DNA from: Haloarcula rubra
Lineage (GTDB): Archaea; Halobacteriota; Halobacteria; Halobacteriales; Haloarculaceae
Direction of reading: 5' to 3'
Assembly: GCF_019599465.1 (NCBI RefSeq)
Contig: NZ_RKLR01000001.1
Location: 1-64,000 of the forward strand
Length of the DNA: 64,000 nt
The notes beneath the pieces were generated by a model. That model did no database searches and was not told where the DNA came from. It saw nothing but the letters and a program-made list of their open reading frames with translations. Below are positions 1 to 1,581 of the stretch, piece after piece. Numbering within the stretch: the stretch's first letter is position 1; every line of letters starts with the position of its first letter. The translations under genes and the position numbers were made by a program.

Positions 1-114
1 TCACCACCGCCGCTGTTGGAGCGGTTGATCGAAGATGCACAGAAGATCCATCAACAGCGACCGATCTTACAGGAGACGCTCGCTACCGCTACGCAACCGA
101 GGTGTGAGTCTTAG
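1..114 (+). CDS. C-terminal fragment of an unidentified protein (cut by window start)
   Basis: Frame 1 is open from the first base to a TAG at 112-114 and gives 37 residues. The stretch is mostly helical-looking (LLERLIEDAQKIHQQRP) and unlike the acidic composition of the neighbouring genes. No family can be recognised from so short a piece. It lies directly before the truncated halocyanin fragment, so it may belong to a mobile element or rearranged gene whose body lies to the left. It could also be a chance open frame. Confidence 0.25.
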   Translation, partial: SPPPLLERLIEDAQKIHQQRPILQETLATATQPRCES

Positions 115-124
115 CTAAAGACGA

Positions 125-340
125 ATGATTACTCCCGATACCACGATAACCTGGGAATGGACAGGACGCGGTGGCGAGCATACAGTGACAGAAGAGCACA
201 ACAGAGAGTTTAGGAGTCAATCCATCGCGGAAGAAGGATTTATGTTTAGTATAACATACACCGGTGAGAGTAATATCTGGTATTATTGCGAGAATCATAG
301 AGATGATGAAATGAAAGGCGGTATTATGCTTGATTTATAA
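125..340 (+). pseudogene. Truncated halocyanin (type-1 copper protein) fragment
   Basis: The 71-residue frame matches the C-terminal two thirds of a plastocyanin/halocyanin domain. It has a first histidine at residue 19 in a GGEHTV context and then C55-x2-H58-x4-M63, the usual spacing of a type-1 copper site. The family normally has a lipoprotein or Tat leader and the first beta strands before this point. Here an in-frame TAA at 116-118 lies just upstream and no leader is encoded, so the product could not be exported as usual. Base composition is AT-rich and codon use differs from the rest of the window. I read it as the remains of a halocyanin gene cut by a rearrangement. A short cytoplasmic copper-binding peptide is possible but less likely. 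Confidence 0.6.
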
Positions 341-698
341 CTCTCTGCCGAAACGAACACACATATATCTTATTTTCAACGTTTAAAATTAGCAAACGAC
401 AAATCTACTGGCCCTTTGATTCATCAGAGTTTTTGTGAGATGGTTCGTAACTGGCTGCTGACTACACGCTCTGTATCGGGCACGCTGCTTCTGACAGCGT
501 TCGGTGAGGTTTCTGCAGCTGTGCTGCAGACTGGGCGCATCGTCAGCACGTTCAGTACTCGGAGTACATGAACATACCCAGTATTTCGACTCTGTTGGGC
601 CGAACTGTTCAACTGCAACACCAATCTTCCAGTTTGTTCGTCAACGGCCCGTCTGTAGAGTGCGTCAGAGAGAGAAACCAATAGGTCTGTTCGGTGTG
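341..698. other. AT-rich gene-poor stretch, probably decayed mobile or acquired DNA
   Basis: No reading frame here has haloarchaeal codon use. The open frames on both strands (for example a 43-codon frame starting at 440) give cysteine- and serine-rich nonsense. There are imperfect palindromes, such as CTGCAG repeated around 513-530 and a GTACTC/GAGTAC pair near 552-565. The composition resembles the truncated halocyanin region. This may be the scar of an insertion-sequence or integration event, but no terminal repeats or transposase motifs can be identified by eye. Confidence 0.4.
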
Positions 699-710
699 AT
701 GTTCCGGCCA

Positions 711-1199
711 ATGACCGACTCGCTCTGGTATCCGTCGGCCGACGACGTTCTCGACATCCACGAGGACATCGTCTCCGAGTATCCCGACACCAGTCCCGGC
801 GTCCAGCGCCGCGGAGACATCGAATTCGCCCTGACGTACGTCAGCGAGGGGAGTTTCGGTAAGGTCCCCGAGACGATTCACGAGAAAGCGTTCCACCTGC
901 TTCGACTTCTCGTGGCCAATCACCCGTTCGTGGACGGTAACAAGCGAACCGCGCTCAACACGACGACAGTGTTCTATCTGCTCAACGGCCACCGATTCAG
1001 GTACGACAACGTAATCAGGGAGATACTGAAGCAGTTCGGAACGGACGAGAAGACGGTCGACGAGGACCACGTGATCGACTATCTTCGCACGCACACCACT
1101 GAGGTCGACCTGAACGAAGTAATCGAACGATGGCGAGGCGACCTCGTCGAGTACGGTCTCGATCAACTGTCCGACGACTCGACAGACCCGAACGATTAA
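711..1199 (+). CDS. doc: Fic/Doc-family toxin (death-on-curing type)
   Basis: The 162-residue protein carries the Fic core motif HPFVDGNKR at residues 71-79, preceded by the helical LLRLLVAN segment typical of the fold. The lysine at the second glycine position of the classic HxFx(D/E)GNGR motif is the Doc variant. Phage P1 Doc with that motif phosphorylates the translation factor EF-Tu instead of transferring AMP. Doc proteins are usually about 125-150 residues, so the length fits with a short C-terminal tail. The start at 711 is chosen because codon use becomes haloarchaeal there; 699 is an alternative. A Phd-type antitoxin would be expected directly upstream and none is visible. A 46-residue ORF follows 25 bases downstream. 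A domesticated Fic enzyme is the main alternative. Confidence 0.82.
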   Translation: MTDSLWYPSADDVLDIHEDIVSEYPDTSPGVQRRGDIEFALTYVSEGSFGKVPETIHEKAFHLLRLLVANHPFVDGNKRTALNTTTVFYLLNGHRFRYDNVIREILKQFGTDEKTVDEDHVIDYLRTHTTEVDLNEVIERWRGDLVEYGLDQLSDDSTDPND

Positions 1200-1224
1200 C
1201 CGGACTCGTAGACAACAATCACCC

Positions 1225-1365
1225 ATGGCGACGGAAGAGCAGACTGGCGACCGCACTCCACTCGACGACGTGATGGACGACATCCGTCGGGAACTGGTGT
1301 TACGGGTCGCCAAGGCGGACCGGGACGAACACCGCGACATCTACGACGCCCTCGAAAACGAGTAG
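1225..1365 (+). CDS. Small acidic protein downstream of Doc, unknown function
   Basis: An ATG at 1225 opens a 46-residue frame ending at TAG 1363-1365. The peptide is strongly charged, with helical patterning in the middle (VMDDIRRELVLRVAKAD). Codon use is haloarchaeal and it follows the Doc gene on the same strand after 25 bases, so co-transcription is likely. It could be an antitoxin placed after its toxin, or simply an unrelated small protein. No DNA-binding motif is evident at this length. Confidence 0.5.
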   Translation: MATEEQTGDRTPLDDVMDDIRRELVLRVAKADRDEHRDIYDALENE

Positions 1366-1581
1366 GTACCCACGTAACTCGGCTTTTCACCTACCGACTC
1401 TTCAGTATTCCACTTCCATCGAGCCTACTAGTTGATTCTCGTCCGGTAGTGTTCCGGGCGACACCTTCCACGATTCCGCGAGCGGTGCGTCCCCTCGTGT
1501 GCGCTCTGCATCTGGGAGCACCGCCAGCCTCCTAACCAGTTAGGACCCATCGGTAGGCCCCGTCTCGATGTACACGGTAGT

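Follow-up and report, generated by a model that had tools for sequence, protein, structure and literature searches.

Which protein neutralises a Doc-family toxin when the antitoxin gene that usually precedes it is missing? This question is raised by a locus at the beginning of a 64,000-nucleotide stretch of Haloarcula rubra DNA (assembly GCF_019599465.1, contig NZ_RKLR01000001.1, positions 1 to 64,000 of the forward strand), which is referred to here in its whole length as the window. A preliminary description had pointed to a Doc gene followed by an open reading frame (ORF) of 46 residues, and had offered two alternatives: either the antitoxin has been lost with a truncated halocyanin region, or the order is reversed and the downstream ORF is a new antitoxin type. 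The second alternative is supported by linkage, natural fusions, an asymmetry in toxin loss, tail similarity, a promoter-like element of the partner's own and a structure model. We conclude that Doc and the 46-amino-acid partner are probably a toxin-antitoxin pair of type II whose genes stand in reversed order, with a tail-only antitoxin that would have its own leaderless promoter. The argument makes use of the following features.

711 to 1199, forward strand: Doc-family toxin gene, 162 amino acids (Pfam Fic, TIGR01550 DOC_P1, PHROG Doc-like toxin; AlphaFold2 model)
921 to 947, forward strand: Doc active-site motif HPFVDGNKR (from the sequence, which reads HPFVDGNKRTAL from 921 on)
1188 to 1200, forward strand: CCGAACGATTAAC, promoter-like (B recognition element/TATA) element of the partner gene, at -37 to -25 from the partner ATG, in a position shared with the final three codons of Doc and its stop
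1225 to 1365, forward strand: small partner gene, 46 amino acids, proposed antitoxin (homology, linkage, selection, fusions, motif)
1330 to 1353, forward strand: C-terminal motif of the partner, H36-x3-Y40-x2-L43 (HRDIYDAL), aligned with the Salmonella Phd hot spots His63/Leu67/Leu70

The Doc protein matches the Pfam Fic model (E 7.9e-11, 43.1 bits, cut-off 24) and the TIGR01550 DOC_P1 model (E 3.5e-15, 56.2 bits, cut-off 38.65). Its start was set at 711 by the start of its relatives, and the in-frame alternatives at 699 and 504 are possible. The HPFVDGNKR motif is complete, as had been stated earlier, and conforms to the consensus HxFx(D/N)(A/G)NKR, which is kept in 56 of 56 intact Docs of the window's family (Haloarculaceae). 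A further arginine at +3, as in AMPylating Fic enzymes, was found in none of these 56 proteins. The AlphaFold2 model of the window Doc (predicted local distance difference test, pLDDT, 85; predicted template modelling score, pTM, 0.79) was compared with P1 Doc (3kh2_A), giving a Z-score of 15.1 and a root mean square deviation of 2.5 Å over 122 aligned residues with 23% identity. As modelled, the window Doc has the same minimal Fic fold as P1 Doc. The mean ratio of nonsynonymous to synonymous polymorphism (pN/pS) of Doc is 0.21 (28 pairs); Doc profile matches were obtained in 213 of 391 sampled genomes of Halobacteria and Doc relatives in 70 of 146 family genomes. Doc would be a Fic-fold toxin of the protein kinase type and is presumably toxic to the cell. 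By analogy with bacterial Doc and EF-Tu, its target could be the archaeal elongation factor aEF1A.

Doc and the small partner are a conserved two-gene module. A profile search for the small ORF in haloarchaeal genomes, which had been proposed as a check, found that for 83 of 84 full-length Docs from Halobacteria the partner-profile match starts 25-48 nt after the Doc match. These 84 Docs were taken from the top of a class-wide listing, with a model end of at least 158; Docs of clade C type (see below) stand further down and outside this count. The 84th Doc (G061) has a partner too, in locus L088. Within the family, 55 of 56 intact Docs are directly followed by a partner, which is fused to Doc in two cases; the sequence downstream of the 56th (L090) is masked by a long N stretch and hence not assessable. 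Among haloarchaeal Docs of named genomes (Halorubrum, Halobellus, Haloferax, Natrinema, Natrialba, Haloarcula and others), 19 of 20 have a partner, and at the 20th the contig ends. Linkage of Doc homologues to the small ORF is thus widespread, and the reversed-order reading is not refuted on the genomic side; absence of such linkage from every other genome, together with a Doc that is not toxic alone, had been named as what would refute it.

Gene lengths and spacing differ between clades. In clade A, a Doc of 162 amino acids and a partner of 46 are separated by 25 nt; this is also the distance from the Doc stop to the ATG at 1225 in the window, in agreement with the spacing given in the preliminary description. 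Clade B combines a Doc of 181-184 amino acids with a partner of 45 and a gap of 2 nt, clade C a Doc of about 132 amino acids with a partner of 56 and a gap of 29-34 nt, and several odd forms occur besides these clades. The partners are similar to each other at the protein level across clades. Five natural ORFs fuse Doc to its partner (G048, G064, G153, G155 and G332); those of G153 and G155 look like one-base losses at the Doc end. As a separate observation, the Docs of the clade C loci L112, L114, L117 and L118 end in tandem in-frame stops and share their frame with the partner; an element containing TGATAA stands where the promoter box would lie.

The 46-codon ORF is a real gene, beyond what chance would produce, because 41 of 146 family genomes contain homologues of it (E≤0.001), most of which lie where a Doc gene ends, and because it evolves as a protein, with a mean pN/pS of 0.17 (28 pairs) that indicates purifying selection. 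The DNA just 5′ of the ORF is extremely conserved, which would also suit an ORF that is untranslated, the conserved DNA being only an RNA antitoxin or a regulatory element. However, the purifying selection acts codon-wise and leaves third positions free to vary, protein-level similarity extends across clades and the fusions with Doc are in frame, so that we consider an untranslated ORF hardly credible.

The partner profile (A2) has matches in 253 of 391 genomes of Halobacteria, representing 71 of 86 genera. In a phylum-wide sample of 246 genomes, matches were found in 31, all of them within the window's own order, and none in genomes from elsewhere in the phylum. Searches of the partner against Pfam, NCBIfam, PADLOC and PHROGs gave no convincing match. 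In Pfam the window ORF has no match at E≤1, and no DNA-binding domain of the Phd/YefM type is recognised in it; the best match among PDB sequences (E 0.12) is not convincing either. Viral contigs yielded 55 pattern matches, none of which is a relative. In five plasmid records, Doc is labelled as a toxin and the partner is a ‘hypothetical protein’ or unannotated, and we found no description of a haloarchaeal Doc partner in the open-licence literature. The window genome contains a second partner of clade C type, an orphan with no Doc nearby (L227, G000:C12:14373-14465; G000 denotes the window genome).

At the Doc start at 711, no ORF of at least 40 amino acids ends within the 40 nt before it. 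The G+C content is 46% in positions 1-340 and 48% in 341-698, compared with 67% for the window, so that the earlier characterisation of this space as AT-rich and coding-poor holds. The label ‘truncated halocyanin’ is also fair, since the ORF at 125-340 covers only model positions 46-113 of the 115 of TIGR03102 and scores 62.2 bits, below the cut-off of 93.8. The window starts with base 1 of contig 11, and its left side is an assembly edge (genome of 4.67 Mb in 37 contigs). The G+C-poor DNA, the truncated halocyanin ORF and the contig start would all suit a history in which an upstream antitoxin has been lost and the downstream ORF is unrelated to Doc. To compare the upstream regions, a uniform rule was applied, under which an ORF of 40-400 amino acids has to end no more than 40 nt from the Doc start. 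Such an ORF was present at 53 of 59 bacterial loci, whereas only 17 of 46 haloarchaeal loci have one. The 46 loci, which also underlie the promoter counts below, comprise 23 of clade A, 7 of clade B and 16 of clade C, with broken or odd loci left out; one bacterial locus, L155, was left out because of its record label. The bacterial upstream ORFs chiefly form three homologous groups of 30, 17 and 3 proteins, and six of these proteins (two per type) match ribbon-helix-helix (RHH), MazE and Phd models, some below the cut-off. Among the 17 haloarchaeal upstream ORFs, homology is confined to a group made up of four near-identical loci and to a single pair. The lack of a Phd gene directly upstream of Doc, as described earlier, is not a peculiarity of this genome, as nothing is conserved there in 46 haloarchaeal loci of three Doc clades, in contrast to bacterial Docs. 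Homologous Docs without an upstream antitoxin occur in many genera, and wherever such a Doc is intact and could be assessed, the conserved, Doc-linked ORF follows it. The first alternative of the preliminary description is not supported and is contradicted by the linkage; loss of an upstream antitoxin beside an unrelated ORF is very improbable.

The C-terminus of the partner resembles that of known Doc antitoxins. In bacteria, the Phd, MazE and RHH antitoxins of Doc have similar C-termini despite their differing DNA-binding domains (e.g. KENREAYEVLAQ, HEKYAELYAKLAE and EKYRPALNELAK), and the haloarchaeal partners end in EHRDIYDALENE, EHEEIYDELATE or RHAEIYAALEDE. The HRDIYDAL of the window partner shows the form H-x3-[Y/L]-x2-L known from these bacterial tails. 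The hot spots reported from an alanine scan of Salmonella Phd include His63, Leu67 and Leu70 (PMC9207808). From these hot spots and the bacterial tails, the pattern [HNYFW]x3[YFL]x2L near the end of the protein was derived. Once eight non-homologous bacterial ORFs had been removed, 43 of 52 bacterial Doc antitoxins, or 27 of 31 when only non-redundant ones are counted, were found to have it, as were 16 of 16 partner representatives. Unrelated haloarchaeal upstream ORFs do not carry it (0 of 19), shuffled partners do so in 0.34% of cases, and the only one of 208 window ORFs with the pattern is the partner itself. By eye, the closest known tail is the C-peptide described for the Doc antitoxin of Enterococcus faecalis, SKQKHNELYKELVT (PMC13034048). 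With this shared pattern, the partner resembles a neutralising tail that lacks the half responsible for DNA binding. The antitoxin would accordingly hold little beyond the C-terminal tail that grips the toxin, a tail that in Phd, MazE-like and RHH antitoxins of Doc sits behind a DNA-binding domain. Judged from the bacterial loci L121-L180, the neutralising tail seems to travel between the RHH, MazE and Phd domains. More distant haloarchaeal Docs (HxFEDGNKR) were read at nine loci, five of which have an ORF with a similar tail at the 3′ side (e.g. IDEDRALFDELDE, RDVLDELAD) and four of which show no downstream tail ORF. At three loci with distant Docs (L220, L221 and L226), an upstream ORF overlaps the Doc start (one helix-turn-helix-like by eye) and no downstream tail ORF was seen, which is possibly a different pairing.

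For a structure model of the pair, a clade C Doc and its partner were folded with AlphaFold2 as one chain in one frame, the two intervening stop codons being read as glycine. This fusion model has a mean pLDDT of 88 and a pTM of 0.86, with values of 93-96 for the partner helices and below 50 for the linker, and its Doc part aligns with P1 Doc with a Z-score of 14.4. Class III Fic proteins carry an inhibitory helix at their own C-terminus, and they align with the fusion model through to their ends. NmFic (5ckl) aligns over 132 residues (model 6 to 200, chain 35 to 188); with the window Doc alone, the alignment extends over 113 residues (model 6 to 132, chain 35 to 168). A Neisseria Fic mutant named delta8 aligns with the fusion model only to 131. 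Read from these alignment ranges, the further extent of the 5ckl alignment places the modelled partner tail at the site of the inhibitory helix of class III Fic proteins. In the proposed mechanism, the tail would fold into helices on Doc at this place, and Doc would be blocked; the partner thereby presumably binds and neutralises the toxin.

Damaged loci are also consistent with such roles. The clade A-type loci of the family include 14 cases in which Doc is truncated, frameshifted, stopped or missing but the partner has stayed intact; an intact Doc with no partner was never seen. A 15th case with 10 N in Doc (G132a) was kept out of this count, and at three further loci both genes are damaged. 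It may be argued that the partner is instead an accessory subunit, such as a chaperone, a targeting factor or a stability factor, and that Doc is a regulated enzyme and not an addiction toxin: obligate pairing and fusions suit any stable partner, and the toxicity of Doc is itself presumed. The partner tail, however, has the pattern of the neutralising peptides of three antitoxin types and is modelled at the inhibitory-helix position. Moreover, partners persist without Doc, including the second copy in the window genome, which would be unexpected of an obligate subunit. We therefore regard an accessory role as unlikely. The broken Docs of many relatives and the gene debris adjoining the pair raise the additional question of whether the pair is a decaying cassette that no longer functions in this genome. 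Here, both ORFs are intact, nothing is missing from the active-site motif and the promoter-like element shows no change, which makes decay quite improbable.

Several points weigh against a toxin-antitoxin pair with a tail-only antitoxin. Doc is 3.5 times longer than its partner, so that toxin loss is partly expected; weighted by length, the 14:0 ratio has a p of about 0.03. The 16/16 count of the tail pattern is partly circular, since some partners outside clade A were picked by a similar C-terminal pattern; for clade A, similarity to the window ORF was the sole criterion. When the bacterial tails were made into a strict 14-column profile, most of the acidic haloarchaeal tails, that of the window included, scored poorly with it, and the looser pattern was adopted after it, its form being chosen with the data already seen. 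Salmonella Phd has further hot spots upstream, Phe56, Ile59 and Met60, and for these there are no ungapped counterparts in the partner. As to the fusion model, the mean pLDDT ranged from 73.6 to 88.0 over five models (73.6-79.7 for the other four). It represents a single chain from another clade, with the partner present in only four alignment rows, and the structure programme may favour a helix at this position through knowing other Fic proteins.

Because the antitoxin comes second in the proposed pair and is probably unable to repress the operon itself, it would be transcribed from its own leaderless promoter, with a TATA-like box built into the end of the toxin gene. Across the 23 clade A loci, 11 columns of the 13-base element CCGAACGATTAAC do not vary at all, and each of the remaining two is kept in 22 of 23. 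The last codon of Doc is GAT in 22 of these 23 loci, although GAT makes up 121 of the 397 other Asp codons of these genes. For comparison, 40 codons with an invariant amino acid were considered, and nine keep their third base in at least 22 of 23 loci, the last three of Doc included. Clade B has the element as well, within the reading frame of Doc, and in clade C it lies, in altered form, between the genes. The A/T fraction at positions -30 to -26 peaks at 0.49-0.61 over 282 mechanically called genes and reaches 0.96-1.00 for the partners, which in this respect resemble leaderless genes. It seems likely that the element is the leaderless promoter of the antitoxin gene. In another toxin-first system, mqsA has been described as having promoters of its own (PMC6918082). 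A candidate box for the Doc gene is listed for comparison; by eye, its conservation among relatives is below that of the partner gene's element.

680 to 684, forward strand: TATA-like stretch (aatag) of the Doc gene, tentative, 27-31 nt before the ATG at 711, fitting the A/T peak at -30 to -26 of the 282 mechanically called genes

The antitoxins of class I Fic proteins (YhfG-Fic and the FicA/VbhA type) are, like the partner, small helical antitoxins of Fic-fold toxins, and their inhibitory motif is [S/T]xxxE[G/N]. This motif is absent from all 23 clade A partners, and the extra arginine that it targets from all 56 intact family Docs. With Phd-Doc of phage P1, Salmonella and E. faecalis, the haloarchaeal pair shares the toxin family and fold, and it also shares a neutralising tail with the same spacing of key residues, as far as described for Salmonella Phd (PMC9207808) and the E. 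faecalis peptide (PMC13034048). On the other hand, the haloarchaeal genes stand in reversed order, with a separate promoter-like element for the partner, and the partner has 46 amino acids and no recognised DNA-binding domain, where a length of 73 is given for Salmonella Phd (PMC9207808). Within the samples searched, the tail-only partner is found in Halobacteria only. The bacterial MazE/AbrB-Doc and RHH-Doc systems likewise have a Doc antitoxin that ends in the same kind of tail, but theirs is encoded upstream and has a DNA-binding domain. In mqsRA, higBA, hicAB and rnlAB, the toxin gene also precedes the antitoxin gene; these toxins are unrelated to Doc, and Doc is not named in the portions of the literature that list toxin-first systems. 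MqsA is reported to carry a DNA-binding domain itself (PMC4803016).

In a section of their 2009 work, Makarova and co-workers state that an archaea-specific toxin-antitoxin system was not found, and YhfG is given there from enterobacteria only (PMC2701414). If the present reading is true, the Doc-tail pair is such an archaea-specific system, and a haloarchaeal toxin family matched in 213 of 391 genomes of Halobacteria gains a partner whose own family is matched in 253. Neutralisation and repression, both normally tasks of the antitoxin, would be separated, with only the neutralising tail left here, and the finding suggests that a promoter is embedded in the last codons of a toxin gene. What is new, a Doc module with reversed order and a proposed tail-only antitoxin, is well supported by comparison.

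The pair is followed by a repeat element that also occurs elsewhere in the family.

1414 to 1469, forward strand: repeat element of about 57 nt with a 7-bp hairpin, closing the cassette (nhmmer E 1e-16, the window copy being among the 12 model-building copies)

The 19-base core of the repeat, with up to two mismatches, was found in 73 of 146 family genomes, and a backwards control gave one match in all. Up to 8 copies occur in one genome (array loci L228-L245). At each of the 15 array loci that were read, the copy furthest to the left is a partial, conserved ‘half-site’, and the copies scored on its strand all come after it; upstream of the half-site, 12 of the 15 have an ORF resembling geranylgeranyl reductase. 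The stretches between the repeats contain HicA, DUF433/DUF5615, UPF0175, DUF3368, PemK-like, ParE-like and Doc-tail modules, the PemK-like match being below cut-off, and further genes besides. In the window genome, some 740 nt separate the half-site (G000:C20:8920-8946) from the end of contig 20, and an array therefore probably extends from contig 20 across the gap in the assembly into contig 11 (G000:C20:8920-9680 and window 1-1469). The gene debris in front of Doc, including the truncated halocyanin, may consequently be remains of other cassettes.

Integrons have a core motif GTTRRRY. Like them, these arrays have direct-oriented repeats between small cassettes, one distinct end site and many toxin-antitoxin cassettes; unlike integrons, GTTRRRY is present in only 1 of 12 repeat copies. 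Canonical attC sites are ruled out by this core motif and by the single hairpin. A tyrosine recombinase of the window genome (L236, G000:C20:550-1731; PF00589, E 9.8e-16), 7 kb from the half-site, was considered as the array enzyme and rejected, as no homologue of it was found at the other arrays. No integrase was seen beside the end sites of the 15 loci, and a phmmer search with one haloarchaeal recombinase matched only itself. Comparison with empty sites gave no clean junction, and the DNA after the end site of G009 has no match to other arrays at E 1e-10. No description of such arrays in haloarchaea was found in the open-licence literature; archaeal integrons have been reported from nine phyla in a study whose main text does not contain ‘halobacter’ (PMC9668308). 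An evenly balanced proposal is that the Doc-tail pair is one cargo of a Haloarculaceae cassette platform, beside HicAB, DUF433/DUF5615, UPF0175 with DUF3368, PemK-like and ParE-like modules. This platform would work by site-specific recombination with a recombinase supplied in trans and would be analogous, not homologous, to integrons and plasmid dif modules. At loci of other genera (L012, L013, L015, L019, L021 and L023), a different conserved stretch, around ATCGAACGAAAGCA, lies 3′ of the partner and is in some cases followed by tRNA-like sequence; it may be another kind of insertion site.
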